Shown here in pieces: positions 10,896 through 63,825 of a DNA stretch of 64,000 bases. The notes beneath the pieces were generated by a model that was not told where the DNA came from, ran no database searches, and worked only from the letters and a program-made list of their open reading frames with translations. Numbering within the stretch: the stretch's first letter is position 1; each line of letters begins with the position of its first letter. Source of the DNA: Dyella terrae (GTDB taxonomy: Bacteria > Pseudomonadota > Gammaproteobacteria > Xanthomonadales > Rhodanobacteraceae). The position numbers were made by a program, and so were the translations under genes. Where the stretch lies: the NCBI RefSeq assembly GCF_022394535.1, contig NZ_CP089414.1, positions 2,852,001-2,916,000 of the forward strand, written 5' to 3'.

Positions 10896-12269
10896 ATGCG
10901 GTTTTCCACCTTGAGCCTGGCCGTTCTGCTGCTGGCGGCGCCGCTGGCGCAGGCGCAGACCGCGCCGACCACCAGCCAAGGCGCCAAGCCGACCACTGGT
11001 GCCTCGCCGGCCTCGGCCTCGTCCGTGCCTGACCAGGTGGACCTGGACGACGTGCGCAACTTCAGCCGCGTCTACGAGATCGTCCGCCAGGCTTACGTGG
11101 AACCGGTGGACAACAAGACCCTGATGAAGGCCGCCATCAGCGGCATGCTCAGCGGCCTGGACCCCCATAGCGAATATCTCGACAAGGACGGTCTGGCGGA
11201 ACTCAGCGAAGACACCACCGGCCAGTACGGCGGCCTCGGCATTGAAGTGCTGCAGGTGGATGGCACGCTACGCATCATCGCCCCTATCGACGACACCCCC
11301 GCCTCGCGCGCCGGCATCAAGCCGGGCGACACCATCGTGAAGATCGATGGCAAGACGGTGGAGCCGGAAAACATCGACGACATGTTCAAGGCATTGCGCG
11401 GCGACCCGGGCAGCAAGGTCACGCTTACCATCCTGCACGAGAAGAGCGACAAGCCCATCGACATGCCGCTGGTGCGCGAGAAGATCTCCGTCACCAGTGT
11501 AAAGACGCGCGAGATCGAACCCGGCTACGCCTATATCCGCATCAGCCAGTTCCAGGACGACACCGCACCTGACCTGGAGAAGAAGCTCGGCGAACTGATC
11601 CGCAAGAACGGCCCGCAAAAGGGCGCCATCCTCGACCTGCGCTCCAACCCTGGCGGCCTGCTCACCGCCGCCGTCGGCGTGAGTGATGACTTCCTCAACT
11701 CCGGCACCATCGTCACCACGCGCGGCCGCCTGCAGGATTCCAACCTCAGCTTCGAAGCGCACGCAGGCGATCTGCTCAATGGCGCGCCGATGGTGGTACT
11801 GGTCGACAACGGCACCGCGTCGGCAGCCGAGATCGTTTCCGGTGCGCTGAAAGACAACCATCGCGCACTGATCGTCGGTCGCCGCACCTTCGGCAAAGGC
11901 GTGGTGCAGACCGTGCTGCCACTGGACAACGACCACGCGGTGAAGATCACCACCGCGCGCTACTACACACCCAACGGCACCTCCATCCAGGCCGAAGGCA
12001 TCAAGCCCGACATCGCCCTCGCCGATCTCGCGGTGAACAAGGCGGACAGCGCCCCCTCCCTGGTCAGCTCCGAAGCCGACCTGCCGAACCACCTTGCCAA
12101 CGAGGATGGGACGTCGAAGGGCAAAGACATCGACAACGATGGCAGCGCGGAGAATGCCAAGCTGGCGACGCAGGATTACGCGTTGTCGCAGGCGTTGAAT
12201 GTGTTGAAGGGGTTGGCGTTGAATCGGTCGACGTATGCTGTTCCGGCGGCGGCGCCGACTAAGCATTGA
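10896..12269 (+). CDS. ctpA: Carboxy-terminal processing protease, S41 family
   Basis: 457 residues from the ATG at 10896, chosen because the signal peptide (FSTLSLAVLLLAAPLAQAQA-like, residues 1-21) begins there; an upstream in-frame start would bury it. A PDZ domain (about 108-185, QYGGLGIEV and ASRAGIKPGDTIVKI) precedes the S41 catalytic domain with nucleophile Ser309 in NGTASAAE and base Lys334 in FGKG. Periplasmic, trims C-termini of envelope proteins. Its last ~35 codons are unusually rich in G- and T-ending codons, part of the compositional halo beside repeat R1. Confidence 0.94.
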   Translation: MRFSTLSLAVLLLAAPLAQAQTAPTTSQGAKPTTGASPASASSVPDQVDLDDVRNFSRVYEIVRQAYVEPVDNKTLMKAAISGMLSGLDPHSEYLDKDGLAELSEDTTGQYGGLGIEVLQVDGTLRIIAPIDDTPASRAGIKPGDTIVKIDGKTVEPENIDDMFKALRGDPGSKVTLTILHEKSDKPIDMPLVREKISVTSVKTREIEPGYAYIRISQFQDDTAPDLEKKLGELIRKNGPQKGAILDLRSNPGGLLTAAVGVSDDFLNSGTIVTTRGRLQDSNLSFEAHAGDLLNGAPMVVLVDNGTASAAEIVSGALKDNHRALIVGRRTFGKGVVQTVLPLDNDHAVKITTARYYTPNGTSIQAEGIKPDIALADLAVNKADSAPSLVSSEADLPNHLANEDGTSKGKDIDNDGSAENAKLATQDYALSQALNVLKGLALNRSTYAVPAAAPTKH

Positions 12270-12315
12270 TTGGCTAGTACCTGGTAACTCCGGAGTACAC
12301 GGAACACCCACGCTT

Positions 12316-12755
12316 TTCTCCCTCTCCCCTACGGGGAGAGGGTTGGGGTGAGGGGTGGGTGCTCGCCTCAGCATTTCATCTTTGTCGTCATCCCTGCGAA
12401 GGCAGGGATCCAGTGACTTTTCGTGGGATTGTCGCGCTACGGCAATCTGGCTCGCCTGCGGCGGGCTTTCGACCTCCTACCGGAGGCCGAGTCACTTTTC
12501 TTTGCTTGCCCGAAGAAAAGTAACCCAAAGAAAGGGCACCCCCACTTGGCGCTGGCCGATAAAGCCGGCCAGTTCGTGAGGGGCGGCCGGGCTTTTCGAC
12601 AGGGCTCCTGCCCTGGCGAAAAGGAATCGGCATCCATGCCGATCCCCCCTGCGGGCCTTTTCGTCCACCCCTCACCGCCGCACAGGGGGCCCGAAGGTCA
12701 AAAGCGCCGAGCCCACGGCTCGTGCTGCTTCGCTGCACATCGCGCTGACGCGGAG
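12316..12755 (+). repeat. Hairpin-array repeat R1 (left arm of element E1)
   Basis: First of seven copies of a ~400 bp extragenic repeat. In order it holds: a CCCTCTCCCC/GGGGAGAGGG hairpin (12320-12342); a box ATCCCTGC/GCAGGGAT (12390-12409); ACTTTTCTT/AAGAAAAGT (12494-12521); CTGGCCG/CGGCCAG (12552-12572); a CTTTTCG/CGAAAAG stem topped by CAGGGC/GCCCTG and a TCCT loop (12592-12623); ATCGGCAT/ATGCCGAT (from about 12627); and GTGC...GCAC (12722-12738). Open frames across it differ between copies and look accidental. Confidence 0.85.
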
Positions 12756-12907
12756 AGGAATTGAAGCGGGCTTTGCTACGTTTTCCCAGACTGGGGCTAG
12801 ATAGAGCTCGCGCTAGGCTTCCCCACCGCTGTGGAGAACTCGTTACCTAGCGGCATCGTCTCTCTCTTCCGCCCTGACTTTGCGCGCTAGAGCAGGAACA
12901 ACGCCAC
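12756..12907. repeat. Core of element E1 between R1 and R2
   Basis: About 150 bp that recurs, with divergence, at 37761-37870 and inverted at 49736-49905 (shared blocks: CTGGGGCTAGATA, TGTGGAG, AACGGCAT-like, and a CTTTG...GCAGGAGC-like end). On the minus strand it holds a 19-codon frame (12797-12856) whose first residues, MPLGNEFSTAVGK, resemble frames in the other two cores. Whether this is translated is unknown. Confidence 0.6.
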
Positions 12908-13352
12908 CTGCGGCGATGCGATGTGCAGCAAAGCTGCACGAGCCGTGGGCTTGTTGCTTTTGATCTTCCAGGGCCCCGTATGAGGCGGCGGGCGGGTGGA
13001 GAAAAGGCCCGCAGGGGAATCGGCACGGATGCCGATTCCTTTTCGCCGGGGCAGGAGCCCCGTCGAAAAGCCCGGAACCCGCACGCGTACCTGGAGGGCA
13101 AAGCCCGGAAGGCGACTCATCCGGGGGGCCCTTTCTTCGGGTTACTTTTCTTGGGCAAGCAAAGAAAAGTGACCCGGACTGCGGCAGCAGTTCGGAAGCC
13201 CGCCGCAGGCGAGCCAGGTCGCTATATCGCTAAAACCAAACACAGAGGCTCTGGAGCCCGGCCCTTGCCCCCTTTTGTGGGGTACGCCGGGATGACGACT
13301 AAAGATGAAACAGTGAGGCGAGCATCCAACCCTCTCCCCAAAGGGGCGAAGG
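12908..13352 (-). repeat. Hairpin-array repeat R2 (right arm of element E1)
   Basis: Inverted copy of R1. The loop-stem at 13039-13070 reads CTTTTCG-C-CGGGGC-AGGA-GCCCCG-T-CGAAAAG, so the CAGGGC/GCCCTG of R1 is replaced on both sides (A-T pair to G-C pair). The GGAATCGGC/GCCGATTCC hairpin is fully paired here. The box near 13260-13275 is degraded relative to other copies. Ends with the AACCCTCTCCCCAAAGGGG outer hairpin at about 13330-13350. Confidence 0.85.
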
Positions 13353-13386
13353 GGCGAAGGAGCAAAAGCGCCAGCGGTAACCAAAA

Positions 13387-13860
13387 CTAAAACCCGATCT
13401 CCGGCACCAACCCCGCCAAATGCCCCGCCAGCGGATCCTCCCGCCCCAACAACTCAAACCCCTCGTACTCAAACCCCGGCGCCACCAAACAGGTGGCCAA
13501 CGCATAAGCCCCCAACGGCCGCGCCGCCTGCCACGCCCCCGCAGGCACCACCGTCACCGATTGCATGCAGTCGTGCAGAGGCCCAAGCGTGCAACGCTCC
13601 AACCGGTTCGTTGCGGAGTGATAGATCAGCAACTCCAGCGGCGCGCCTTCGACGAAATGCCAGGCTTCTTCAGCATCCACACGATGCCAGCTGCTGGACT
13701 GCCCTGCTTCGAGTAAATAGTGGATAGCGCTCATCGCATGGCGCTCGCCGCCGTCCGCGCCCTTGGGCGGATGGAAGCGATGGTAGTGGCCACCTTCGAC
13801 GTGCGGCTGCAACCGCAGCGAGGTTTTCAGTTCCTCGATGCGGGCGGCCGTGTCGCTCAT
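13387..13860 (-). CDS. Cupin_5 (DUF985) family protein
   Basis: 157 residues of a single cupin-like beta barrel: GGHYHRF at 23-29, SSWHRVDAEEAWHFVEG in the middle and VAPGFEYEGFELLGRED near the end are hallmark segments of the DUF985/cupin_5 family, related to RmlC-like barrels. Several His and Glu residues could bind a metal. No reaction is established for the family and I propose none. The start overlaps the tatC stop by 4 nt (ATGA), so it is translated as a fourth gene of the tatABC operon. The last ~25 codons, beside repeat R2, show the G/T codon bias of the repeat halo. Confidence 0.88.
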   Translation of the reverse strand: MSDTAARIEELKTSLRLQPHVEGGHYHRFHPPKGADGGERHAMSAIHYLLEAGQSSSWHRVDAEEAWHFVEGAPLELLIYHSATNRLERCTLGPLHDCMQSVTVVPAGAWQAARPLGAYALATCLVAPGFEYEGFELLGREDPLAGHLAGLVPEIGF

Positions 13861-14621
13861 ACGGTCTTATCAGTCTTGGACGGGTTGATCAGCCAGCGCA
13901 CCGCCAACAGACCGAGCTCGTAGAGCAGGCACATGGGAATGGCCAGCATGATCATCGAGGTGATGTCGGGTGGCGTGATGAAGGCCGCGATGGCGAAGGC
14001 ACCCACGATGGCGTAGCGGCGGGAATTGCGAAGTTGCTCCAGGTTCACCACGCCAATCGCAGCGAGGATCACTACTGCCACCGGCACCTCGAAGCACAGG
14101 CCGAAGGCGAAGAACATCAGCATCACGAAGTCGAGGTAATGCGTGATGTCGGTCATCATCTCCACGCCCTCCGGCGTTACCGCCGTGAGGAAACGGAAAG
14201 CCGCCGGCATCACCAGAAAGTACGCGAACGCGCAGCCGAGGTAGAACAGGAACAGCGCCGCCACCAGCAGCGGGCGGGCGAGGCGTTTTTCATTCCGGTA
14301 CAGGCCGGGGCTCACGAAGGCCCACAGCTGATAGACGATCATCGGCATGCTGATTAACAGCGCCACGTAGAACGCCAGCTTCAGCGGCGTGACGAACGGA
14401 CTGGCTACCTCGGTCGCGATGAGATGTGCCCCTTGCGGCAGGCGTGCCACCAACGGCGCGGCCAACTCTGCATAAAGGCGGTTGGCGAAGGGCATGAGCA
14501 CGGCGAGCACGATAAGCACAGTGACGATGGCTCGCATCAAGCGCGAGCGCAGCTCGATCAGGTGCGAAAACAGACCCTGTTCCAGATCGGACTCGGGACC
14601 GTCGAGTTCAGGCGCCGCCAT
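13857..14621 (-). CDS. tatC: Sec-independent protein translocase subunit TatC
   Basis: 254 residues starting at MAAPELDG; a TTG-initiated extension would merely read the tatB tail in another frame. The SHLIELRSRLMRA motif at the N-terminus is the TatC signature that contacts twin-arginine signal peptides, followed by six membrane segments (for example FVSPGLYRNEKR between TM2 and TM3, and FITPPDITSMIMLAIPM late in the protein). Inner-membrane receptor of the Tat pathway for folded proteins. It overlaps tatB by 14 nt and the downstream cupin gene by 4 nt. Confidence 0.97.
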   Translation of the reverse strand: MAAPELDGPESDLEQGLFSHLIELRSRLMRAIVTVLIVLAVLMPFANRLYAELAAPLVARLPQGAHLIATEVASPFVTPLKLAFYVALLISMPMIVYQLWAFVSPGLYRNEKRLARPLLVAALFLFYLGCAFAYFLVMPAAFRFLTAVTPEGVEMMTDITHYLDFVMLMFFAFGLCFEVPVAVVILAAIGVVNLEQLRNSRRYAIVGAFAIAAFITPPDITSMIMLAIPMCLLYELGLLAVRWLINPSKTDKTV

Positions 14622-14997
14622 GCGGGACTTCCTTGATCGGGGTGGCGTCGGCGGTGGCAGCGACAGCCGTCTCCGGAGCGATCTCCGCAACTAATGCCGG
14701 CTCTGCGGTCGGCGGCGCCGGGCTCGACGGCACGCCAGAGGGGCGCATCTTGCGCAGCGTCTCGTCCAGCTCGGCCTGCGCGGCTTCGGCGCGCGATGCG
14801 GCTTCCTTGGCCTGACGGCGGATTTCTTCCACCTGCAGCTCGCGCTCCACTTCAGCGCGTACGCTGTCCCAGCCGGTGCGGATGCGACGCATGAATACGC
14901 CCGCCGTACGCGCTGCGTGCGGGAGCTTTTCCGGGCCGAGCACAATCAGCGCAATAAGCGCGAGCAATACCAGCTTGCCGAAGCTGATCTCGATCAT
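14608..14997 (-). CDS. tatB: Sec-independent protein translocase subunit TatB
   Basis: 129 residues: MIEISFGKLVLLALIALIVLGPEKLP gives the N-terminal membrane helix and the Gly-Pro hinge typical of TatB (rather than the FG hinge of TatA), followed by an amphipathic helix (RTAGVFMRRIRTGWDSV) and a charged, then Pro/Ala-rich tail. Works with TatC in substrate recognition. It starts 16 bp after the tatA stop, giving the usual tatA-tatB-tatC order on the minus strand. Confidence 0.95.
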   Translation of the reverse strand: MIEISFGKLVLLALIALIVLGPEKLPHAARTAGVFMRRIRTGWDSVRAEVERELQVEEIRRQAKEAASRAEAAQAELDETLRKMRPSGVPSSPAPPTAEPALVAEIAPETAVAATADATPIKEVPHGGA

Positions 14998-15012
14998 GCC
15001 GATACGACCCGA

Positions 15013-15240: not shown

Positions 15241-15306
15241 GAAAAGGGACCTCAGGAAGGAAAGCGACGGAACGAAACTGTCACGCTGCCGCGCCGCCGC
15301 TCCACA

Positions 15307-18033: not shown

Positions 18034-18178
18034 GAGTCGCTAACAAAACGTAGCGAGCGGCCGTCAGGTGGGCGTGGGCGGCGCGCAGGAAACCGGAGTG
18101 TACTTGTACGTACATGAGGATTCCGAGCACCGACCGCGCCCACCTGACGGTCGCGCAGTAGTTTTGTTGGCGGCTCTT
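18034..18178. repeat. 145-bp fold-back element
   Basis: Imperfect inverted arms, 18034-18083 and 18131-18178, share CTAACAAAAC/GTTTTGTTGG-type ends and a perfectly matching CCGTCAGGTGGGCG block. The centre adds nested symmetry (TGTAC...GTACA; GGAA...TTCC). The whole can form one long hairpin. It lies 10 bp after the hydrolase stop and 51 bp before the AraC gene. Arms differ at roughly one position in seven, so it is not recent. Confidence 0.7.
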
Positions 18179-21048: not shown

Positions 21049-22752
21049 TTAGGGCTTCGTGAGGCCCAATACATCGGTCCCCTGCTCGAACGTGATGTCC
21101 ACCGGGATCTTCGCCTGATCCAGTCGCTTGAGATCGCCGGCGAGCGTCGCATCGACGTTGCCCATGCTATCGGTGAGCTTCTTGGCTGCGTCGTAGTCGC
21201 CGTCACCCTGGATGGTGAGCAGCTTGGCGGAGAGTGCGTTCATTGCCGCCGTCATCTTGTCGAAGTCGACGCGGTAACGCCCGGTCGCGGGGTCGCGAGT
21301 GAATGCGCCCTGCTGCTGGAAGAAGTTGAAGCGCACCATGTTCGCCTTGGCGTGCGCATCGCTGGCGCCGAAGCGCACCGAACGCAAAATGCCGGCGAGG
21401 AAGGTGACGTAGTTGTCCATCAACTTGGACTTATCCAGCTCGCCCTTGTCGGCCAGCTTAGTGACCATGTAGAGGCCCAGGATGTCGGCCTTGCCCTCCT
21501 CGAAACTCGAGGCCTGATCCTTCAATGCCGTGCGCACCATGCCCTTGCCGTCGAGCGTGTTCTTGATGCCCAGGCCATGCGCGACTTCGTGGAACATGGT
21601 GTTCTCGAAGAACGCATCAAAGGTGAGGTGCGATTGCTGGTCGTTCGCGATCAGCTCCTTCGCGATGGGCAACATGATCTTGTCGAACTTAGCCTGCATC
21701 ACGTTCTCCAGCTGCAAGCGGCGCGTGCCCTTCTTGAGCTGCACTTCCTCGTCATTGGGAAGATTGATGGCGATGGTCTTGGCGCCAACGTTGGCGTCGC
21801 CGGCGTAATACACAGCAAAGTAAGCGTTGAGGTCAGCGTCGGAACCGGGCTTCTCGGCCTTGTACTTGTCATCCACCGGCAGCTCGCGCTGCAGATCCGG
21901 CAGGTACTTGGCGAAGCGGGCAAGCTTGGCACTCCACGCCTGATCCTTCACCAGCACGTAGCTTTCGTAACTAGCCTTGTAGCCGAACAACTGGTCTTCG
22001 TAGGTCTCGATGGGGCCGATCACGATGTCGACGGGGTTGTTCTTCATCGACATCCACGCGAAATCGCTGGGACGGTAATCGTCACTCAGCAGCGCGTCGG
22101 CACGCTTCTTCAGATAACCCGCGAACTCCTTGTCCGCTGACAAATCCGCCGCCTGACGCAGCAAGCCAGCAGCGCGTTCCAGATCAGCCTTATAGGCCTC
22201 GTGATAGGGCACGGTCACCAGTTGGTTCTGCGCGTCACGACGCAGCAGCGTATAGAGGCCTGCTTTGTCCTTGAGATCGGCCTTGTCGAACTCTTCCTTG
22301 GTCATGTCGGCCGGGTAGAACTGCGCCCCCGCCGGGCGCGGACCAACACCGGCAACAAACGGCTGGTCATTGTCCAGGCGATCCCACGGGCCGTAGTTGA
22401 TCTCGGCAAAACGACGCGTGACCTCGTCGGGGATACGCGCCATCAACGCGGCCTTATCGCCCCACGACTGCTGCCAATAGATGTCGTTAGTAACGTCCGC
22501 CGCTTCGATCAGCAACGCAATCATCTGCTTCTGCTTGTCATCGAAACTGGACAGGTCAGCAGTGAGTTTTATCGACGCATAGTTCGCCATGCGCTGCGCG
22601 GCGATGTCCTCATCGGTAGACGGCGGCGGCACGGCGGGTGCCGTGCTGGCAGGCGCCGGGGCAGAAGCCTGCGCGGCCGGCGCATTGCTGTCGTGGGAAC
22701 TGCAGCCAGCCAGAACGGCGATGAGGCTCAGGGCGAGGAGATGGCGGCGCAT
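21049..22752 (-). CDS. Zinc-dependent peptidase lipoprotein (M49-like)
   Basis: 567 residues. Lipobox LAGC places the lipidated Cys at residue 17; a linker rich in Ala, Pro and Ser follows. The catalytic region has HEVAHG at 388-393 and EEGKAD at 418-423, the HExxH plus downstream EExxAD arrangement of zinc hydrolases related to dipeptidyl-peptidase III (M49), often annotated only as Zn-dependent hydrolase. Periplasm-facing. Two ATGs 6 bp apart (22758 and 22752) are possible; the inner one is at better distance from the GAGA ribosome-binding site. Upstream reading into repeat R3 is not supported. Confidence 0.85.
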   Translation of the reverse strand: MRRHLLALSLIAVLAGCSSHDSNAPAAQASAPAPASTAPAVPPPSTDEDIAAQRMANYASIKLTADLSSFDDKQKQMIALLIEAADVTNDIYWQQSWGDKAALMARIPDEVTRRFAEINYGPWDRLDNDQPFVAGVGPRPAGAQFYPADMTKEEFDKADLKDKAGLYTLLRRDAQNQLVTVPYHEAYKADLERAAGLLRQAADLSADKEFAGYLKKRADALLSDDYRPSDFAWMSMKNNPVDIVIGPIETYEDQLFGYKASYESYVLVKDQAWSAKLARFAKYLPDLQRELPVDDKYKAEKPGSDADLNAYFAVYYAGDANVGAKTIAINLPNDEEVQLKKGTRRLQLENVMQAKFDKIMLPIAKELIANDQQSHLTFDAFFENTMFHEVAHGLGIKNTLDGKGMVRTALKDQASSFEEGKADILGLYMVTKLADKGELDKSKLMDNYVTFLAGILRSVRFGASDAHAKANMVRFNFFQQQGAFTRDPATGRYRVDFDKMTAAMNALSAKLLTIQGDGDYDAAKKLTDSMGNVDATLAGDLKRLDQAKIPVDITFEQGTDVLGLTKP

Positions 22753-22910
22753 GGGCATTTCTCGGCGAAGGAAAACCCCATGGTAGCGCGAGGGGTACGG
22801 AGCGCGGTGGGGGTACATTGGTACGCTGGCGCGGCCTTTTGCTTCGCTGTCTTCCTGGTGAGAACCAGGGGTCCCGTTTCCGTATCGCCTGTTTGTCACG
22901 CTACCGCGAC

Positions 22911-23340
22911 CCGCAGCGATGCGATGTGCAGCGAAGCTGCACGAGCCGTCCGCTTTCGCTTTTGACCTTCCGGGCCCCCTGTGCGGCGGTGAGGGGTGGA
23001 CGATCATGCCCGCAGGGGGGATCGGCATGGATGCCGATCCCTTTTCGCCAGGGCAGGATGCCCTGTCGAAAAGCCCGGCCGCCCCTCACGTACTGGCCGG
23101 CTTTACCGGCCAGCGCCAAGTGGGGGTGCCTTTCTTTTGGTTACTTTTCTTGGGCAAGCAAAGAAAAGTGACTCGGCCTCCGGCAGGAGGTCGAAAGCCC
23201 GCCGCAGGCGAGCCAGTTCGCGACTACGCGACAACCAAACACCGAGGCTCTGGATCCCGGCCTTCGCCGGGATGACGATAACAACGGTGAGGCTAGATTG
23301 ACCCCTCACCCCAACCCTCTCCCCGAAGGGTAGAGGGAGC
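22911..23340 (-). repeat. Hairpin-array repeat R3, single arm
   Basis: A minus-orientation copy without a facing partner. GTGCAGC/GCTGCAC is at about 22925, the GGGATCGGCAT/ATGCCGATCCC hairpin near 23015-23040 (G-C class), the stem CTTTTCG/CGAAAAG with CAGGGC/GCCCTG at 23041-23073, CTGGCCGG/CCGGCCAG near 23093-23113, ACTTTTCTT/AAGAAAAGT near 23142-23170, the GGATCCCGGCCTTCGCCGGGATGACG box at 23252-23278 in several pieces, and the outer hairpin near 23318-23338. The 22753-22910 region upstream of the peptidase gene holds nothing else recognisable. Confidence 0.85.
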
Positions 23341-23443
23341 AGACCTAAGGCGTTCAGCGTGCCTCGCGCTTACCCAGCACCCGCTCTCTTCCCGGGATAT
23401 ACAAAAATACCCCCTTCAACATCAAAAGAAACACAACAAAACA

Positions 23444-24649
23444 TCACCCCGAAATCGCCAACCTCTCCGACTGATACAACCGCGCCGTCGCCAACACCCC
23501 AATCAACGCCGCCACCAAACTACCCGCCAGACACAACCCAAGCTGCTCCGTAGTCACACCATCACCGCGCAACAACTGCATGATGCCCAAGTGCTGGCCC
23601 AGCAACGGCACCGCATACATCCAGCCCTGCGCCTTGATAGGCATGGTGGAAAGCAGAATGCTCGGCAGCACCGGCACGAACATCAGCAACGACAGATAGG
23701 TCTGCGCCTCGCGATAGCTCTTGGCGAAAGCCGCAACCATCGATTGCAACGCTGCCAGCAATGCAATCAGCGGCACCATCAGCAACAACACCTGACCACT
23801 AAAGCGCGGACCGAGATCCAGCTCCATACCGAGCCTCTCCGTCGGGATAAACGGCCCCACCACGCCAAACGCCAACAAGCTGATCAGCAGACTCGCCGCA
23901 GAGAACGTGCAGATCGCCGCCAGCTTGCCCGCGAGAATCTTCCAGCGCGGCACCGGATTGGCAAACAAGGGCTCGAGCGACTGACGTTCGCGTTCGCCCG
24001 CGGTGAGATCGATCGCCAGATACATGCCACCCATGAACACCGTGAGCACGAAGAAGTACGGCAGGATCGAGAACATCAGCGCCGCGCGCGCCTGCGCCGT
24101 GGCCTGATCGCGCCTGGCGGCTTGTACCGGCCACGCGGTGCTAGGTGAGAGCCCGCGCGACACCAGCCGCATGGCACCCTGCTGGCGTGCGTAGCCCTCC
24201 ACCACTTGCGATACGCGCTCCACTGCGGCGTTGGCATCACGCTGCGAGGAGTCGTAGATCAACTCGACCTGCACGGCCTCGCCTTTGCGCCACGCGGTGA
24301 CGTAATCAGGTGAAATGCGCAGCGCGACATCGGCATCCTGCTTGCGCACGGCGAGCTCGGGATTGTCGATGGGTGGTCTTGGCACGATGCCCTCGGCCTT
24401 CAGCGCATTGATCAGGTTCGGTGCGTTCTCGGCACCGATGATCGGCACAGGCAGCGGTTTCTCCGCCTTGTCGAACTGACGATTGAGTGTGATGTTGAGC
24501 AACATCACCAGGATTAATGGCCCCAACAACGGACCCGTGAGGAAGGCACTGATGATGGTGCGGCGATCGCGCAGGTTTTCCTTCACTTCCTTGAGGAAGA
24601 CAGTAAGGAAGGCGCGCGTACGGGTGGCCGGCATAGTCGGCGTACTCAT
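23444..24649 (-). CDS. natB: ABC exporter permease, NatB type
   Basis: 401 residues of the ABC-2 type fold: one N-terminal membrane helix (about 36-56), a large periplasmic domain (about 60-200), then a cluster of membrane helices from about 205 (FSILPYFFVLTVFMGGMYLAID, TAGERERQSLEPLFANP, the NatB/YhaP-like signature). In Bacillus NatAB exports Na+; other members export antibiotics or peptides. The start overlaps the natA-like stop by 4 nt. The final ~40 codons are strongly G/T-biased in the coding strand, and the non-coding DNA beyond the stop continues the same bias towards R3. Confidence 0.85.
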   Translation of the reverse strand: MSTPTMPATRTRAFLTVFLKEVKENLRDRRTIISAFLTGPLLGPLILVMLLNITLNRQFDKAEKPLPVPIIGAENAPNLINALKAEGIVPRPPIDNPELAVRKQDADVALRISPDYVTAWRKGEAVQVELIYDSSQRDANAAVERVSQVVEGYARQQGAMRLVSRGLSPSTAWPVQAARRDQATAQARAALMFSILPYFFVLTVFMGGMYLAIDLTAGERERQSLEPLFANPVPRWKILAGKLAAICTFSAASLLISLLAFGVVGPFIPTERLGMELDLGPRFSGQVLLLMVPLIALLAALQSMVAAFAKSYREAQTYLSLLMFVPVLPSILLSTMPIKAQGWMYAVPLLGQHLGIMQLLRGDGVTTEQLGLCLAGSLVAALIGVLATARLYQSERLAISG

Positions 24650-36823: not shown

Positions 36824-37543
36824 ATGCGCGTCAACAAATACATCAGCGAAGCCGGCATCTGCTCCCGTCGTGAGGCGGACGAACTACTACTCGCCGGCCG
36901 CGTCACCATCAATGGCGAAGTCGTCACCACCGGCGCGAAAGCACTGGAAGGCGACGAAGTACGCGTGGACGGCGAGATCGTCAAGGCACGCATCCTCGCC
37001 GCCACACCGTCCGCCAAGCGCGCGGTATACATCGCGCTGAACAAGCCGGTCGGCGTTACCTGCACCACCGACCAGACGGTGAAAGACAACATCGTCAATT
37101 TCGTCGACCACCAGGAACGCGTCTTCCCCATCGGCCGCCTGGACAAGGATTCCGAAGGCCTGATTCTGCTCACCAGCAACGGCGATATCGTCAACGAAAT
37201 CCTGCGCTCGGAAAACAACCACGAGAAGGAATACCTCGTGGCCGTGAACAAGGCGGTGACCGACGAATTCCTGCAAGGCATGGCACGTGGCGTACGTATC
37301 CACGGCCAGATGACCAAGCCATGCAAGGTGCGCAAGATCGCCAAGTTCGGCTTCGCGATCGTCCTAACGCAGGGTTTGAATCGACAGATTCGTTTGATGG
37401 CCGCGGAGTTTGGTTATCGCGTGACGCAGTTGCGGCGGGTGCGCATCGTCAACGTGAAGCTGGGGCATTTGAAGGTGGGGCAGTGGCGGAATCTCACCGA
37501 TGCGGAGTTGAAGGGGTTGTTGCCTCAGCGGACGCAGTGGTAG
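36824..37543 (+). CDS. rluF: 23S rRNA pseudouridine synthase, RluF type
   Basis: 239 residues. An S4 RNA-binding domain (1-60, RVNKYISEAGICSRREADELLLAGRVTING) precedes the RsuA/RluB/E/F catalytic domain with Asp in GRLDKDSEGLILLTSNGD, and NHEKEYLV and LTQGLNRQIRLM segments that match RluF, which modifies U2604 of 23S rRNA. E. coli RluF has a basic C-terminal tail of about 50 residues that is missing here. The final ~55 codons shift sharply to G- and T-ending codons, part of the halo beside element E2. Confidence 0.9.
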   Translation: MRVNKYISEAGICSRREADELLLAGRVTINGEVVTTGAKALEGDEVRVDGEIVKARILAATPSAKRAVYIALNKPVGVTCTTDQTVKDNIVNFVDHQERVFPIGRLDKDSEGLILLTSNGDIVNEILRSENNHEKEYLVAVNKAVTDEFLQGMARGVRIHGQMTKPCKVRKIAKFGFAIVLTQGLNRQIRLMAAEFGYRVTQLRRVRIVNVKLGHLKVGQWRNLTDAELKGLLPQRTQW

Positions 37544-37570
37544 TTGGCGACGCCTCGCTGTTTCGTCTTT

Positions 37571-37760
37571 AGCCGTTATCCCTGCGAAGGCAGAGATCGA
37601 GTTTCGCCAGTGGTCGGCTGTCGCCTCGTGCTTTATCGCGACCTGGCCGCTTACGCAGAGGGCGTTTCGATCGTCTGCCGACGACGCGAAGCTAGTCCCG
37701 TGGAACACAGCGGGTAGTTCGGAGCGCTTCGCAACGCGCCCTCGCGAAGAGGACTTAAAG
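37571..37760 (+). repeat. Degenerate left arm of element E2
   Basis: Starts with a box TATCCCTGCGAAGGCAGAGATC (in two halves 37577-37598) and continues with GACCTGGCCGC-TACGC-GAGGGCGTTTCG, recognisable as a worn copy of the R-type outer part (compare 62577-62612). The hairpin array itself is lost or too diverged to see. Confidence 0.5.
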
Positions 37761-37870
37761 CAGGCCTCGCTACGCTTCCCGACCGGTGTGGAGAACTCGC
37801 CACGGAACGGCATCGTCTTTCTCTTCTGCCTTGGCTTTGTGCACTAAAGCAGGAGCCACGCGACCCGCCG
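37761..37870. repeat. Core of element E2
   Basis: Homologous to the cores at 12756-12907 and 49736-49905: CTTCCCGACCGGTGTGGAGAACTCG, AACGGCATCGTCTTTCTCTTC-type blocks (each shared with at least one other core) and a GCAGGAGC end. The minus-strand frame beginning at 37813 reads MPFRGEFSTPVGKRS, similar in its start to the 19-codon frames of the other cores, but runs on further here. Confidence 0.55.
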
Positions 37871-38303
37871 CGATGCGATGTGCGGCGCAGCTGCACGAGC
37901 CGTCCGCTTTCGCTTTTGACCTTCCGGCCCCCTGTGCGGCGGTGAGGGGTGGACGACAAGGCCCGCAGGGGGGATCGGCATGGATGCCGATCCCTTTTCG
38001 CCAGGGCAGGATGCCCTGTCGAAAAGCCCGGCCACTCCTCACGGACTGGCCGGCTTCACCGGCCAGCGCCAAGTGGGGGTGCCCTTTCTTTGGGTTACTT
38101 TTCTTGGGCAAGCAAAGAAAAGTGACTCGGCCTCCGGCAGGAGGTCGAAACGCCCGCCGCGTAGGCGGCCAGGTCGCGATCACGCGCCAACCGAGAGCAA
38201 AGTCACTGGATCCCTGCCTTCGCAGGGATGACGGCTTAGAAGAAACGATGAGGCTAGATTGACCCCTCACCCCAACCCTCTCCCCCAAAAGGGCGAGGGA
38301 GCA
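37871..38303 (-). repeat. Hairpin-array repeat R4 (right arm of element E2)
   Basis: Minus-orientation copy very close to R3. G-C class GGGATCGGCAT/ATGCCGATCCC near 37972-37994, CTTTTCG stem with CAGGGC/GCCCTG near 37993-38026, CTGGCCGG/CCGGCCAG near 38045-38065, ACTTTTCTT/AAGAAAAGT near 38096-38124, box ATCCCTGCCTTCGCAGGGAT (38210-38229) and outer hairpin near 38276-38300. Confidence 0.85.
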
Positions 38304-38580
38304 GAAATGCAGCGCCTCGCCTCTACCCACCATCTCGCTGTCCGCACCCAAGAACACCCCGAGTCGAAAACCCGCTGCACCGCAACATCAACACACACAA
38401 AAAACTCCCCAAACCCAACCAACCAAAGAACCACCCAACAAAAACCCCAAACGCACCTGCACAAACCGTTACAACCGAGCCCATCCCTCGACATCCCCGC
38501 CACTCTGGTGCATACGTATTCACTTCGATGAACCGGCGCAGCCATCGCAGAATCGCCGGACTCTGAATTGGGGAGAGGCA
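38304..38580. other. A+C-rich non-coding gap between R4 and the sugar porter gene
   Basis: No gene is supportable. On the plus strand positions 38341-38460 are A or C at 103 of 120 positions by my count, including runs such as CACACACAAAAA and CCAACCAACCAAAG. From about 38500 the composition returns to normal. The sugar porter promoter should lie in 38500-38575; a GGGGAGAGG stretch just before the start codon serves as ribosome-binding site. Confidence 0.6.
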
Positions 38581-49215: not shown

Positions 49216-49245
49216 CTGAGGGTTGGGCGCGGAGCGCTTTAGTTC

Positions 49246-49735
49246 TGCTCCCTCGCCCCTTCGGGGAGAGGGGTGGGGTGAGGGGGCAACCTAGCCTCAC
49301 CATTTCGATGGAATCGTCATCTCGGCGCACCCCGAGAAGGGGCAAGGGCCGGAGGCGCTTTTCAACAGCCGAATGGCTGGTCATCCAGTAGAGATATTGC
49401 TTGGTTGTCGCTTTGCAGCGACCTGGCTCGCCTGCGGCGGGCTTCCGAACTGCTACCGCAGTCCGGGTCACTTTCTCTTGCTTGCCCAAGAGAAAGCAAC
49501 CGAAGAGAAAGGCCCCCCGGAATCGGCGCCTTCCGGGCTTCGCCCTCCAGGTACGCGTGCGGGTTCCGGGCTTTTCGACGGGGCTCCTGCCCCGGCGAAA
49601 AGGAATCGGCATCCATGCCGATTCCCCTGCGGGCCTTTTCTCCACCCGCCCGCCGCCTCATACGGGGCCCTAGTAGATCAAAAGCAGCGAGCACGCGGCT
49701 CGTGCAGCTTTGCTGCACATCGCATCGCGGCGGAA
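49246..49735 (+). repeat. Hairpin-array repeat R5 (left arm of element E3)
   Basis: Plus-orientation copy. The outer hairpin CCCTCGCCCC/GGGGAGAGGG is near 49250-49271. ACTTTCTCTT/AAGAGAAAG-C replaces the ACTTTTCTT/AAGAAAAGT of R1 (49469-49496). The stem near 49571-49602 is CGGGGC/GCCCCG like R2, and GGAATCGGCAT/ATGCCGATTCC (49602-49626) is fully paired A-T class. The box near 49313-49345 is degraded. Ends with GTGCAGC/GCTGCAC near 49702-49718. Confidence 0.85.
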
Positions 49736-49905
49736 CGCTTTGCTCCTGCACTAAGGCGCAAAGTCAAAGCAGAAGAGAAAGGTCATGCCGTTAGGTGGCG
49801 AGCGCTCCACATCGGTCAGGAAGCGTAGCGCGTGCTTTATGTAGCGCGCTTTATCTAGCCCCAGCGATCGGAAAGCGAAACTCGCTTCAAGTCCTCTCCG
49901 CATCG
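49736..49905. repeat. Core of element E3
   Basis: Same core as E1 and E2 but inverted. Carries on the plus strand a 19-codon frame, 49785-49844, starting MPLGGERSTSVRK, the same length as the E1 core frame. GAAGAGAAAGGTC precedes the ATG. Coding status unproven. Confidence 0.55.
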
Positions 49906-50316
49906 GCGATGTGCAGCTTTGCTGCCGAGCCGCGTGCTTGCCGCCTTTGATCTCCGGGCCCCCTGTGCGGCGGTGAGGGTGGACGATCAGGCCCGCAGGG
50001 GAATCGGCATGGATGCCGATTCCTTTTCGCCAGGGCAGGATGCCCTGTCGAAAAGCCCGGCCGCCCCTCACGAACTGGCCAGCTTCACCGGCCAGCGCCA
50101 AGTGGGGGTGCCCTTCTCTTTGGTTACTTTCTCTTGGGCATGCAAGAGAAAGTGACCCGGCCTCCGGCAGGAGGACGGAAGCCCGCCGCAGGCGAGCCAG
50201 GTCGTGACAGCGCGACAACCAAGCGCAAGGTCACTGGATCCCTGCCTCCGCAGGGATGACGGTTTCATCGAAACGGCAAGGCAAGCACCCAACCCTCTCC
50301 CCAAAAGGGGCGAGGG
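49906..50316 (-). repeat. Hairpin-array repeat R6 (right arm of element E3)
   Basis: Minus-orientation copy. It combines the ACTTTCTCTT/AAGAGAAAGT stem of R5 (near 50126-50153, perfectly paired) and A-T class GGAATCGGC/GCCGATTCC with the CAGGGC/GCCCTG stem of R1, R3 and R4, so stem classes are assorted independently among copies. Box ATCCCTGCCTCCGCAGGGAT near 50239-50258, outer hairpin near 50293-50315. Confidence 0.85.
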
Positions 50317-50334
50317 AGAAGAACTGAGACACCC

Positions 50335-50631
50335 CTAACCAATAATCGCCAACACCGCCGCAAACCAAATCACCACCACCCCACCCGCAAACGCCCGCCG
50401 CGCCGCCCCGATGCGCTCCCCGCTCTCCTCACTCACCGGCGTAGTCACAATCCACGGCACCGAGGCCAGCAACCCAAACCCAACAAAGGCCAACACGATC
50501 ACCGCCACATCCAGCCCCCGCCACGGCACCGGCTCGTGTACGCCCCAGTAGCCCAGAAAAGCCATCCCCATCGCGCACAAGGTGGCCGATGCGGAACACA
50601 ACCCGACGACTGAACCTGCTGGTGCACGCAT
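50335..50631 (-). CDS. Small membrane protein of unknown function
   Basis: 98 residues if started at the ATG at 50629-50631; in-frame starts up to 50757 exist but would run into the YceI promoter. Three hydrophobic segments (about 8-27, 36-55 and 77-97), with loops GVHEPVPWRG and TTPVSEESGERIGAARR. No family recognised; an unnamed inner-membrane protein. Its 3' end next to R6 is part of the repeat halo (A+C about 83 % on the plus strand at 50341-50400). Composition makes it slightly doubtful as a gene, but the hydrophobic pattern is regular. Confidence 0.6.
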   Translation of the reverse strand: MRAPAGSVVGLCSASATLCAMGMAFLGYWGVHEPVPWRGLDVAVIVLAFVGFGLLASVPWIVTTPVSEESGERIGAARRAFAGGVVVIWFAAVLAIIG

Positions 50632-50767
50632 GGCAGCTGTCTCCGGCAAGGAATGCGCAGAGCCTACCGCAGCCGGGAAAAAGGAATGTCGAAATCCGGC
50701 GACCCCGTTCGTCATGAGGATAAGCGCGCCAAAAAAGGCGCCCGTTTCCCCGCCCAAGGAGTTGACG

Positions 50768-57831: not shown

Positions 57832-57858
57832 GAACCCGGTCAGGACCTCTGTGTCACC

Positions 57859-57879: not shown

Positions 57880-58089
57880 CCTGCGGGACGGCTGGAGGTC
57901 GGCAGCCCCTGCCTGCCCAGCCGGGGTCAAGTCGTCTGCGGGTGAGCTCACGCGAGCTTCGGGCCAGTCCCCTCCGACGCGAAAATTTCCTCGCATTTCC
58001 TAACTCCGCCCCCCCTCCTGAAGTTTTCCGGCTTATCCACGCTCAATCCACAATCTATTGGGTTGACCGGCCCGAGGTAGCCCGATATG

Positions 58090-58284
58090 TTGTGCCTCGT
58101 CGGTGCCAATCTCAGACCTATGGTCGGACTGGTTTAAAAGGGAATCCGGTGGAAATCCGGGACTGCCCCGCAGCGGTAAGTGGAAACGAAAGCCAACAAC
58201 GCACTGGCCCTCAGCGGCTGGGAAGCGGGAGCGAGTAGGCGGGTCGAAAGACCCATGTCCACGAGTCCGAAGACCTGCCGACAG
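58090..58284 (+). promoter_or_regulatory. Cobalamin (adenosylcobalamin-class) riboswitch upstream of nrdA
   Basis: The conserved blocks are all present in order: CGGTGCC (58101-58107), AAAAGGGAATCCGGTG (58136-58151), ACTGCCCCGCAGCGGTAAG (58162-58180), and the B12-box GAGTCCGAAGACCTGCC (58263-58279). Directly after it CCGTGG/CCACGG (58285-58290/58298-58303) could form the expression-platform hairpin. The nrdA start is 166 bp further on. B12 binding should switch off this class I reductase, as in bacteria that also have a B12-dependent enzyme. Confidence 0.93.
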
Positions 58285-58449
58285 CCGTGGCCACGCACCA
58301 CGGTGAAGGGTGACGGCTTCCGCGGGGAAGTGCGTCGATGCGCGGGGCGCCTGCCCTGCCGCTCGACCGTCCGCGAGACTTCACCTTCATTTACTCAGCC
58401 CTGCGCGCGCGAGCAGGCAGTTGATGACCAAGCTTGGAGCGAAGTCGCC

Positions 58450-60939: not shown

Positions 60940-60946
60940 CCCTCAT

Positions 60947-61480
60947 CGTCATTCCCGCGAAGGCGGGAATCCAGTGACTTTTCGGCCATGCCAAAGACGC
61001 TGGATTCCTGCCCTTCCTGGAGTGGCGGTCAAGCGCAGATGTCGTCGTAGAGGTCGCGCCAGCAAGAATTGGATTGTTCGATGAGTTTTATCTTCCAGCT
61101 GCGCATCCATTTCTTGAGGGTTTTTTCGCGAACAATGGCTGCTTCCATGGTGTCGTGCGCTTCGTACCAGACCAGTTGATGGACCTGATGACGTTGAGTA
61201 AAGCCTTCAACGACATCGTTGCGGTGTTGCCAAATGCGGCCAGCAAGATTGGAAGTCACACCCGTGTACAACGTACCGTTTCGTTGGCTGGCAAGGATGT
61301 AAACGCAAGGCTGTCGTTCGCTCATGGTGGCCGTTCCTTTGGATCACGGACCGAGCTTGCAGCAAAGAACACCCCATTTCGACCGTCATCCCCGCGAAGG
61401 CGGGGGTCCAGCGGCTTCCTCTGACACGTTTCGGCGGAATAAAGAGAAGTCACTGGATTCCCGCCTTCGCGGGAATGACG
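60947..61480. mobile_element. GIY-YIG cassette with 34-bp perfect terminal inverted repeats
   Basis: The first 34 bp (60947-60980, CGTCATTCCCGCGAAGGC...CAGTGACTT) and the last 34 bp (61447-61480) are perfect inverted repeats. Each end has a second, inner copy in opposite direction: 60999-61028 (worn) and 61384-61413. So both ends are inverted pairs like that at 45529-45623. Between them is one small nuclease gene (61029-61325). No target duplication was seen. It separates nrdA and nrdB. The interpretation as mobile is inference. Confidence 0.6.
61029..61325 (-). CDS. GIY-YIG nuclease superfamily protein
   Basis: 98 residues. The family motifs are VYILAS and GTLYTGVTS (GIY and YIG equivalents), Arg in NLAGRIWQH, and Glu in AAIVREKTLKKW. 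This is the small single-domain UPF0213/COG2827-type, with no DNA-binding extension. Bacterial members may act in DNA repair or as mobile nucleases; none is well characterised. The gene is on the opposite strand to nrdA and nrdB and its stop touches the worn inner repeat, so it is embedded in the repeat-bounded cassette. Confidence 0.88.
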   Translation of the reverse strand: MSERQPCVYILASQRNGTLYTGVTSNLAGRIWQHRNDVVEGFTQRHQVHQLVWYEAHDTMEAAIVREKTLKKWMRSWKIKLIEQSNSCWRDLYDDICA

Positions 61481-61536
61481 AGCAAAAAGAACTAAAGACG
61501 CGCCGCTCTATCCGCGCGACAACAACGAGGCACATC

Positions 61537-62547
61537 ATGTCCACCCAGAACATTCTCGATCCCGGCTTTGAACTCACCCTGCGCCCCATGCGCTATCCCG
61601 AGTTCTACGAGATGTACCGCAACGCGATCAAGAACACCTGGACGGTCGAGGAAGTGGATTTCTCGCTGGACACGACGGACCTCAAGTCCAAGATGTCCGA
61701 CGCGGACCGCCACCTGATCCATCGCCTCGTGGCCTTCTTCGCCACCGGTGACACCATCGTGGCGAACAACCTGGTGCTGAACCTGTATCAGCACATCAAT
61801 GCGCCCGAAGCGCGCATGTATCTGTCGCGCCAGCTGTACGAAGAAGCGCTGCACGTGCAGTTCTACCTCACCCTGCTGGACACCTATATTCCCGATCCGA
61901 CCGAGCGCAACAAGGCGTTCGACGCGATCCAGAACATCCCGTCGATCCGTCAGAAGGGCGAGTTCTGCTTCAAGTGGATCGATTCCATCCAGGGCCTGCA
62001 GAAGCTGGAAACGCGCGAGCACCGCCGCCAGTTCCTGCTGAACCTGATCTGCTTCGCCGCGTGCATCGAGGGCCTGTTCTTCTTCGCTGCGTTCGCCTAC
62101 GTGTACTTCCTGCGCTCGCGCGGCCTGCTGCACGGTTTGGCCTCGGGCACCAACTGGGTGTTCCGCGACGAGAGCTGCCACATGGCGTTCGCGTTCGACG
62201 TGGTGCGCACGGTGCGCGCCGAAGAGCCGGACCTGTTCGACGACCAGATGCGCACGCAGATCGAAGAGATGCTGGAAGACGCCATCGCCTGCGAAACCCA
62301 GTTCGCCGAGGATGTGCTTTCTGGTGGCGTGGCTGGCCTCTCGGTGAAGGATATGCGGCAGTATCTGGAGTACTGCGCGGACCAGCGCTTGGTGCAGCTT
62401 GATCTGCCGAAGAAGTATGGTGCGAAGAACCCATTCGACTTTATGGATCTGCAGGATGTGCAGGAAGTGACGAACTTCTTCGAGCGTCGGGTTTCGGCTT
62501 ATCAGGTGGGTGTGCAGGGTGATGTGGCGTTTGATATGTCGTTCTGA
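61537..62547 (+). CDS. nrdB: Class I ribonucleoside-diphosphate reductase, beta subunit
   Basis: 336 residues from the ATG at 61537, with GAGG 10 bp upstream; longer frames read the repeat box. Ferritin-like di-metal protein. A conserved Glu-x2-His-x3-Tyr is seen in EEALHVQFY, so the radical-bearing Tyr seems present (class Ia rather than Phe-type Ic), subject to alignment. Other ligand segments: FFATGDTIVANN, and RDESCHMAFAFDVVR with Glu and His. Pairs with NrdA. The last ~50 codons turn G/T-rich next to repeat R7. Confidence 0.95.
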   Translation: MSTQNILDPGFELTLRPMRYPEFYEMYRNAIKNTWTVEEVDFSLDTTDLKSKMSDADRHLIHRLVAFFATGDTIVANNLVLNLYQHINAPEARMYLSRQLYEEALHVQFYLTLLDTYIPDPTERNKAFDAIQNIPSIRQKGEFCFKWIDSIQGLQKLETREHRRQFLLNLICFAACIEGLFFFAAFAYVYFLRSRGLLHGLASGTNWVFRDESCHMAFAFDVVRTVRAEEPDLFDDQMRTQIEEMLEDAIACETQFAEDVLSGGVAGLSVKDMRQYLEYCADQRLVQLDLPKKYGAKNPFDFMDLQDVQEVTNFFERRVSAYQVGVQGDVAFDMSF

Positions 62548-62554
62548 TGTGAGG

Positions 62555-62952
62555 GGCGTTGTCGCTTAGTTATCGCGTTGCGGCAATCTGGCCGCCTACG
62601 CCGCGGGCGTTTCGCCCTCCTACCGGAGGCCGAGTCACTTTTCTTTGCTTGCCCGAAGAAAAGTAACCCGAAGAAAGGGCACCCCCACTTGGCGCTGGCC
62701 GGCTATGCCGGCCAGTTCGTGAGGGGTGGCCGGGCTTTTCGACAGGGCTCCTGCCCTGGCGAAAAGGGATCGGCATCCGTGCCGATCCCCTGCGGGCCTT
62801 CTCGTCCACCCCTCACCGCCGCACAGGGGGCCCGAAAGGTCACAAGCTCAAAGCTGACGGCTCGTGCAGCTTTGCTGCACATCGCAGGGATGACGGCATG
62901 GGCGAAACGGCGGGGCTAGATTGAGCCCTCTCCCCAAAGGGGAGAGGGAGAA
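62555..62952 (+). repeat. Hairpin-array repeat R7, fused to an opposite outer end
   Basis: Plus-orientation array (ACTTTTCTT/AAGAAAAGT near 62636-62663, CTGGCCGG/CCGGCCAG near 62695-62714, CAGGGC/GCCCTG stem near 62737-62768, GGGATCGGC/GCCGATCCC near 62766-62790, GTGCAGC/GCTGCAC near 62864-62880). It lacks its own left outer hairpin, and right after GCACATCGC it continues with GGGATGACGG...GCTAGATTGAG and the outer hairpin of the opposite orientation (62924-62950). It looks like a two-armed element shortened by an internal deletion. Confidence 0.8.
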
Positions 62953-62961
62953 AGAGCAACA

Positions 62962-63825
62962 TCACTTACTCGCCGACACACTCCCAAGATTCACAAAAGG
63001 CACCGCACTACTCCCCGTATACGTCGGCAAATGCCCATCCCATTTCTCAATCGCCGACATCTGCACAATGTTCGGGTTGGACCGCAACGCCTCACCCTTC
63101 AGTTCGATGGCTTTCGCCTCCGCCTCCGCAATGGTGATCTGAGCCTGCGCACGGCCCTGCGCTTCAGCCTCCACCTTTTCCGCTTCAGCCCTCGCCTGCG
63201 CCACTTCGTTCTGGCGTTGCTCCGCCATCTGCGTCGCCTGGATCTTGGCGTTGATCGACTGCACCACGTTTTCCGGCAGGCGTAGCTCGCCAACCCAGTA
63301 GATCTTTTCCACGTCGATGCCAACGGCAGCGACTTCGTCACTCACGTCCTTCTGCACGGCTTCGATCAGGTTGGCTTTGCCCTTGCCATACACCGACTCG
63401 ATGTCCAGGCTTGATGCTTCCTTTACCAACGCGTCGCGGATCATGTTGCGCAGATAGACGTCCGTGATCTCGTCGATACCCTTGCGGTACTTCTGGAAGA
63501 TCAGCGTTACCTTCGACGGATCGATGTGATACGTGATGCCCACGTCCGCATTCACCGTCAGGCCTTGCGAGGTCTGGAAGCTGATCGACTCGTCGGTGGG
63601 TCGGCCTTCGGTCGGCGAACGGGTGAAGGTGTACGTCTGGGTGAAAGTGGGGAAGGTGTACATCTCATAACCCCAGCCGACCCAGTAACGGCCAGGCGGC
63701 AGCTCCTGCAGCGAATCCTTGCCATCGCCGTACATCTGAAACTTCACACCGACATTGCCCGCCGGCACCTTGGAGCAGGAGGCCAGCAACAGGGCGGAGA
63801 GCGACAACATCAACAGGCGTTTCAT
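62962..63825 (-). CDS. SPFH/prohibitin-like lipoprotein
   Basis: 287 residues from the ATG at 63823-63825 (AAGGA stands 9 bp upstream; an ATG at 63834 is too close to it). Lipobox LASC makes Cys17 or thereabouts the lipidated residue. The SPFH/Band 7 domain covers about 22-200 (VGVKFQMYGDGKDSLQELPPGRYWVG, LTVNADVGITYHIDPSKV, NMIRDALVKEASSLDIESVYGKGK). A long helix rich in Ala, Glu and Gln (about 200-250) follows, as in prohibitins. A lipid-anchored rather than membrane-spanning SPFH protein is uncommon. Its 3' end carries the A/C-rich (plus-strand) halo of R7. Confidence 0.88.
   Translation of the reverse strand: MKRLLMLSLSALLLASCSKVPAGNVGVKFQMYGDGKDSLQELPPGRYWVGWGYEMYTFPTFTQTYTFTRSPTEGRPTDESISFQTSQGLTVNADVGITYHIDPSKVTLIFQKYRKGIDEITDVYLRNMIRDALVKEASSLDIESVYGKGKANLIEAVQKDVSDEVAAVGIDVEKIYWVGELRLPENVVQSINAKIQATQMAEQRQNEVAQARAEAEKVEAEAQGRAQAQITIAEAEAKAIELKGEALRSNPNIVQMSAIEKWDGHLPTYTGSSAVPFVNLGSVSASK

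Follow-up and report, generated by a model that had tools for sequence, protein, structure and literature searches.

Hairpin-rich repeat arrays in a Dyella-like chromosome are flanked by halos in which cytosine has been lost from the strand that runs 3′ into the array. This loss is centered on the element, two-sided, strand-coordinated, and dependent on the array. We analyzed a 64,000-bp stretch of DNA, hereafter the window (G000:C1:2852001–2916000), which belongs to a single-contig chromosome of 5,355,565 bp. Among named organisms, its nearest relatives as judged at one locus are Dyella sp. ASV24 and AtDHG13, with proteins 98 % identical. An earlier note on this DNA had described G+T-rich left and A+C-rich right flanks at the arrays E1, R3, E2, E3, and R7 of the window, and all eight of its percentages were reproduced exactly. 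The five gene ends that it had listed as lying away from an element (20981, 33604, 40020, 43261, and 60939) are indeed without skew, with 43–57 % G+T.

Repeat islands, taken as stretches longer than 300 bp with a self-BLAST depth of at least 40, were delimited in 37 mutually compared stretches that sum to 461,034 bases (461 kb) including the window. This yielded 47 islands; the array copies came from 54 matches from the best 40 of 93 candidates scored, and the genome total may be higher. Keto skew is given as G+T minus A+C for the plus strand. Genome-wide, G and T are enriched on whichever strand has its 3′ end directed at the island, on the left and on the right alike. On the left, mean skew is +0.25 at 1–25 bp, +0.42 at 26–50 bp, +0.39 at 51–75 bp, and +0.31 at 76–100 bp, and then declines through +0.23 and +0.15 to +0.09 at 201–300 bp and +0.02 at 301–400 bp. 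Identical bins outward on the right give −0.27, −0.40, −0.38, −0.32, −0.29, −0.21, −0.05, and +0.01. The halo extends ~250 bp per side, and skew is ~0 by 300 bp. At 26–50 bp, 45 of 47 islands are positive on the left and 45 are negative on the right; at 51–75 bp, these counts are 47 and 45. For comparison, distant 100-bp windows have a skew standard deviation of 0.116 and a 99.9th percentile of |skew| of 0.40, and the mean half-difference of 0.343 at islands stands against a maximum of 0.033 in 2000 random sets of 47 positions. The left composition at 26–50 bp is A.12, C.17, G.41, and T.30, versus approximately A.19, C.32, G.31, and T.18 beyond 1 kb. The asymmetry first seen in the window persists when averaged over the located copies. 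The claim that every hairpin element carries it is not supported: the halo of eight short islands is weak (mean about +0.12), and repeat clusters of Escherichia coli, described below, have none. Mean skew is correlated with the length of the island (Spearman 0.49, p 0.0004), longer islands having the stronger halos. Individual weak cases are the left flank of E1 (+0.08 at 1–100 bp) and island L043 (0.00 left, −0.08 right).

The skew belongs to the element and not to gene ends, as the earlier note had stated. Genes were called with a simple home-made codon-based caller that misses genes ending in halos, so the orientation of some large-gap flanks is uncertain. Whether the adjacent gene points at the array (62 within 120 bp, 7 more distant) or outward (25) makes little difference to flank skew, and 24 of the 25 flanks with genes pointing outward are positive at 51–100 bp. 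Gene 3′ ends adjoining arrays have a mean skew of +0.326 (n = 56), versus +0.007 for gene 3′ ends more than 800 bp from arrays (n = 216) and +0.005 for the convergent subset of the latter (n = 47). A gene-end effect was rejected because the skew is centered on the array and absent at array-free gene ends. Fork direction could be inferred from the best DnaA match, at 3.44 Mb, together with a sign change of GC skew near 3.5 Mb. Skew at 1–50 bp is +0.40 on the incoming-fork side and +0.27 on the outgoing side, and the background at 400–1000 bp already differs by ~0.07–0.10. Because the difference between incoming and outgoing sides is close to this background strand bias, a fork-stall asymmetry was rejected as the sole cause; the halo is two-sided and nearly equal by fork side once the genome's own leading-strand bias is allowed for.

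Cytosine loss relative to array-less orthologs

Syntenic 120–140 kb stretches from three complete Dyella genomes were compared, using 29 of 40 array/array-less pairs; the other 11, with alignments that stopped more than 150 bp before the edge, were dropped. Within 200 bp, the array-bearing flank is more G+T-rich than its array-less ortholog in 13 of 14 cases (Wilcoxon p 0.0001), so that the comparison with element-less relatives proposed in the earlier note supports its view of the skew. The mean difference is +0.175 within 200 bp and −0.028 beyond 400 bp. Pairs in which each ortholog carries the array show skew in both members and differ little.

Among array-less>array substitutions within 200 bp, C>T outnumbers T>C by 232 to 39 and C>G outnumbers G>C by 157 to 40, with 34 C>A against 23 of the reverse and 75 each of A>G and G>A. 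Far from arrays, forward/reverse substitution ratios are 0.66–1.30. The pattern is found in the own-genome subset (C>T 163:28, C>G 110:20, C>A 20) and in the other-species subset (C>T 69:11, C>G 47:20, C>A 14). The earlier note had predicted an excess of C>T and A>G on this strand, as deamination-like changes would give. The C>T excess is present, the A>G excess is missing, and the C>G excess had not been predicted. Plain deamination fails because C is lost to T and G alike and A>G is weak; a C>T plus A>G process was rejected by the spectrum (A>G equals G>A) and by the model fits below.

Coding sequence is affected as well. Less than 150 bp from arrays, the fourfold sites of 59 genes contain.11 C and.71 G, compared with.44 and.39 elsewhere; in the same genes, near arrays, the T share of C/T families is.73 instead of.25, and the G share of A/G families is 93 % instead of 71 %. 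Of 109 fourfold C in array-less orthologs, 64 became G, 31 T, and 1 A, and 13 were kept. Amino-acid changes are biased to G/T near arrays (52 up, 24 down), versus 96 up and 139 down far from them. Series of single-gene orthologs are only suggestive. In the S41 peptidase series, arrays longer than 200 bp that start within 40 bp of the stop go with a last-100-bp skew of +0.22 to +0.30 (L053, L066, L092), yet counter-cases with no detected array reach +0.16 to +0.22 (L056, L081, L088, L091). In a second series, third-position skew is at least +0.25 at four of five large arrays within 250 bp of the stop (L102, L104, L107, L108), with L105 (array present, −0.05) and L122 (no array, +0.25) as exceptions. 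In a pairwise alignment with ASV24 at E1, the halo bins are not enriched in substitutions (3–13 differences per 88–100 bases), which is as expected for a halo near equilibrium without proving it.

We fitted models to the pair data alone and to pair data plus composition (joint fit; the genome's own flanks only, six), replacing an earlier keto-only selection fit. With pair data alone and array age free, equal acceleration of C>T and C>G (2 parameters) has an Akaike information criterion (AIC) of 1052.4 and ties with base-specific selection (4 parameters, 1052.7); keto-only selection reaches 1123.7 and C>T plus A>G 1157.3. The best joint fit accelerates C>T and C>G both ninefold and A loss twofold (AIC 3163), followed by three-potential selection (3227), single keto selection (3288), C>T plus A>G without C>G (3665), and no effect (4090). 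When the six flanks were bootstrapped 30 times, a mutation model came first in 29. Of retained C sites, 13 were observed, where the C-loss model predicts 25 and three-potential selection 59.

Possible origins of the halo

At roughly even confidence, we propose that recurrent exposure of single-stranded DNA beside the array, combined with cytosine-directed error-prone repair, gives the halo. On either side, quasi-palindromic arrays would repeatedly bare the last ~250 bases of the strand running 3′ into them; 3′ overhangs of a two-ended break or gap would be the simplest form of this exposure. In a cell without SbcCD, palindromes may persist as sites of recurrent gaps or breaks. The exposed 3′-ending strands would then lose cytosine through damage and error-prone resynthesis, for example abasic-site bypass, with C going to T and G ~9 times faster than elsewhere and A being lost about twofold faster. 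The long-term steady state would be a 3′-pointing strand depleted in C and enriched in G+T, with altered codon usage and non-coding skew. The genome carries an error-prone DnaE2-type DNA polymerase gene (NF004225, 1477 bits). The model comparison favors an effect on mutation rate over selection, because weak selection giving this equilibrium could not speed C loss so much; we hold this argument at moderate confidence since the flanks are few and stationarity is assumed.

Several observations weigh against this proposal. The single-stranded state and the breakage are ones that we infer here from sequence alone. SbcCD, which the earlier note had offered as an example of the cleaving nuclease, cleaves long palindromes. 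SbcD had 0 matches to TIGR00619 at E ≤ 0.001 in this genome (13 of 14 controls matched; SbcC was not searched for) and none over the cut-off in 50 genomes with the array pattern, which makes SbcCD cleavage unlikely, and this candidate was dropped. Lost C has no sequence context (×0.50–0.61 in all four 5′ contexts), so no deaminase is indicated. The gene imuB was not identified beside the dnaE2-type gene, and a Caulobacter imuC (dnaE2) mutant has only a minor change of spontaneous spectrum in the part of that study at hand (PMC7198004); given this minor share, a role for dnaE2 in the halos is a guess. Fourfold G>C occurs in only 2 of 142 sites versus 9 under the model, leaving room for fixation bias. 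GGTGG/TGGTGG words exceed order-2 expectation more near arrays than far from them, which counts against a blind C-loss process, as such a process does not predict these words. In the comparison with array-less orthologs, three of the 14 flanks have values close to zero and one has a negative value. Finally, the models were compared on six flanks, with ortholog pairs that are not independent of one another and under an assumption of stationarity, and one of the 30 bootstraps favored selection.

The main rival is selection, which we consider unlikely while taking it seriously. G+T-rich, Chi-like DNA on the 3′-pointing strand would be favored for RecA loading and RecBCD regulation, making the halos recombination-rescue islands. 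The orientation of Chi matches the G+T-rich strand of the halo, RecB is encoded in the genome, and a keto tilt with one parameter comes fairly close to the composition at fourfold sites. Near arrays, GNTGGTGG occurs 33 times in the oriented sense, where 9.2 (order-1) or 14.9 (order-2) would be expected; its reverse complement occurs once. Selection stays alive because such an oriented TGGTGG excess fits the preference of RecA and Chi, RecA being described as preferring TGG repeats in the part of PMC3763553 at hand. However, GNTGGTGG is likewise in excess far from arrays (69 versus 43.9 order-2 expected), the halos have no single dominant motif, and C loss outpaces an equilibrium tilt, as reflected in the overpredicted retained C and an AIC 64 worse. 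This case against selection rests on the joint fit, since the pair data alone give a tie. Biased gene conversion, by which heteroduplex formed at arrays would be resolved in favor of the keto base of the invading 3′ strand, is distinctly improbable. It would account for a halo symmetric about the array, for a keto tilt that is fairly uniform, and for the fewer C gains, and an inversion described below suggests recombination at arrays; yet it can accelerate rates only to a limited degree, as with selection, and C is lost far more than A, contrary to a keto rule.

The remaining alternatives are weaker still. Strand-coordinated clusters are typical of single events in kataegis, which speaks for a one-time mutation shower at array insertion in place of a continuing process. 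We judge this very unlikely, as halos occur at arrays common to all three relatives (over 200 bp, +0.06/+0.45 for the array at 12311 and +0.24/+0.56 for that at 37551) and are about as strong at the array at 22903, present in none of the three (+0.15/+0.46; sharing labeled by hand), and as both members of both-array pairs are skewed. Slightly less probable again is selection at the RNA level, whereby A+C-rich outgoing RNA would provide Rho-utilization (rut) sites that stop read-through out of the array. Rut sites are C-rich and G-poor, like the outgoing strand, but flanks without a gene reading into the array from the other side, unreachable by read-through, are equally skewed (0.349, n = 9, versus 0.372, n = 51; p 0.72), and Rho read-through is not supported. 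Least credible, and largely refuted, is the idea that G+T>A+C switch points or gene ends came first and that arrays were inserted or survived there. Orthologs without the array do have a slight skew in the first 100 bp (+0.14 to +0.19), but most of the skew is missing from them, and neither the 216 array-free gene ends nor the 47 convergent ones show it on average.

Arrays of the window and of other genomes

Full-length arrays are ~1-kb quasi-palindromes made of two inverted hairpin-rich halves, and the half arrays R3 and R7 contain one arm each. E1, the one array folded, forms a single giant branched hairpin with a DNA minimum free energy of −414 kcal/mol. Rfam at gathering thresholds assigns no family to the arrays of the window; elsewhere in the window it matches a cobalamin riboswitch (58084–58296, +) and an sX9 small RNA homolog (18038–18115, −). 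The located arrays are unevenly placed, with one below 1.1 Mb (36 kb), the rest at 1.1–5.0 Mb, and seven within 2.86–2.93 Mb. No array was found around the inferred terminus (~0.83 Mb) in searches that may have missed copies.

Array boundaries in the window are those of the self-BLAST islands, and skews are given over 100 and 200 bp. Full-length array E1 (12311–13363; arms 12396–12541 and 13123–13268) has a weak left halo (12111–12310, +) at the 3′ end of an S41/PDZ peptidase gene (+0.08, +0.04; 70 % G+T at 12181–12240) and a right halo (13364–13563, −) at the 3′ end of the Cupin_5 cupin gene 13387–13860 (−) (−0.52, −0.38). Half array R3 (22903–23355) has its left halo (22703–22902, +) on the upstream side of a peptidase gene pointing away (+0.26, +0.04), and its right halo (23356–23600, −) lies at the 3′ end of an ABC-2 membrane gene (−) (−0.44, −0.48). 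In the three relatives that lack R3, this right flank is less skewed (near difference +0.328). Array E2 (37551–38319) is bordered on the left (37351–37550, +) by the 3′ end of a pseudouridine synthase gene (PF00849; +0.26, +0.22). Its right halo (38320–38540, −), non-coding and upstream of the sugar-transporter gene 38581 (+), is the strongest of the window (−0.60, −0.52; 100-bp maximum 0.80). Full-length array E3 (49227–50328) adjoins the 3′ end of an epimerase gene on the left (PF01370; 49027–49226, +; +0.14, +0.32) and, on the right (50329–50590, −; −0.58, −0.50), the open reading frame (ORF) 50335–50757 (−), known from the ORF list only. Half array R7 (62556–62955) has a left halo (62356–62555, +; +0.40 over 100 bp) at the 3′ end of nrdB (PF00268) and a right halo (62956–63155, −) at the 3′ end of a Band-7 gene (−) (−0.36, −0.02). 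Within the last 32 codons of nrdB, all synonymous differences from three array-less relatives end in G or T here, and the protein end is conserved, with one or two residues differing from the three relatives. The codon-based gene caller overlooked ORFs 13387–13860 and 50335–50757, both of which end in halos with altered codon usage; annotation beside arrays may be more widely wrong.

R7 also marks one end of an inversion. Specifically, the 6.5-kb segment between R7 and the next array (62983 to L032:5469; array at L032:5540) is inverted in one Dyella genome, G019, and not in another, G006. In the G019 stretch (126553–132988), an array lies at one end of the inversion and the other end has none. 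This inversion points to recombination at arrays.

The core array pattern, searched with up to 2 mismatches in 299 genomes of the order, is present in 50 genomes and in 19 of 85 genera. Halos outside this genome are mostly weaker, and island edges are less exact where few copies were available. Further Dyella halos are clear in G006 and G019 and weak in G008, where 13 large islands reach at most +0.20 on the left and −0.23 on the right. Within the same family, skews at 51–100 bp are +0.18 and −0.34 in G309 (n = 6) and +0.17 and −0.19 in G265 (n = 7), and G073 (n = 5) has a halo on the left only. In another family, the 20 islands of two genomes from one genus have +0.22 on the left and −0.12 on the right at 51–100 bp, and flanks in these genomes contain GTTGCT-like runs. 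At L216–L218 (G160, genus g64), array edges grade into degenerate GTTGCT/GTTGCC runs with the G+T-rich strand pointing at the array. SbcD exceeds the curated cut-off of TIGR00619 in 14 of the 299 genomes; none of these 14 is among the 50 array genomes, an association that is not significant (P 0.07).

Relation to known systems and meaning

No description of such a halo was found among the open-access papers listed, with subscription journals mostly not covered, in agreement with the earlier note, whose author knew of none. The closest likeness is kataegis. In yeast, the products of AID kataegis are 46 % C>T, 47 % C>G, and 7 % C>A and are UNG/REV1-dependent, according to the part of Taylor et al. 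2013 at hand (PMC3628087). As far as that part goes, kataegis and the halo share same-strand C changes that switch strand across a center near a break, here a presumed one, and C>T and C>G far above C>A, as in both subsets above. The halo differs in being fixed in bacterial lineages, in spanning ~250 bp and not kilobases, in being centered on repeat arrays, and in having no 5′ deaminase context (TC or similar).

Like the bacterial interspersed mosaic elements and repetitive extragenic palindromes (REP) of E. coli, the Dyella arrays are clusters of inverted hairpin-forming intergenic repeats, but they differ in sequence, and REP clusters are mostly much shorter. In E. coli K-12, no halo was seen at 24 REP clusters in six 50-kb stretches (bin means within 0.083), and only 1 of 12 larger clusters exceeds 300 bp (599 bp; +0.06/−0.04). 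Regarding the REP-associated tyrosine transposase system, this genome has 0 matches to the Y1 transposase family PF01797 (5 of 14 controls matched). Palindrome cleavage by SbcCD fits the long quasi-palindrome, as folded for E1, and lacks an SbcD match here. Chi islands and RecA-preferred GT-rich DNA share with the halo a G+T-rich strand with its 3′ end toward the presumed break and TGGTGG words (PMC3763553, in part), whereas halos have no single motif, are tied to arrays, and lose C faster than such selection would allow in the joint fit. The leading-strand GC/keto skew likewise puts a G+T excess on one strand, but the halo flips sign at each array, is several times stronger, and is present whichever way the fork runs. 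Unlike a pair of Rho-dependent terminators, the halo does not depend on transcription out of the array, judged from only 9 unexposed flanks.

Taken further, and held a little short of even confidence, recurrent exposure and error-prone repair would make the arrays permanent local mutators, so that neighboring gene ends would evolve in a mutational regime of their own that destroys cytosine on one strand, comparable to kataegis but fixed in bacteria and involving neither a deaminase nor SbcCD. If selection is the cause instead, the halos would represent a large number of natural sites for recombination rescue. If the mutational reading is true, codon usage, gene calling, dN/dS, and protein C-termini beside such repeats would mirror a local mutation regime and not function. 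The halos would then be a sequence-readable, genome-wide natural record of repeated single-strand exposure in a bacterial chromosome, and fork or break fragility at palindromes in SbcD-less bacteria would become directly testable.

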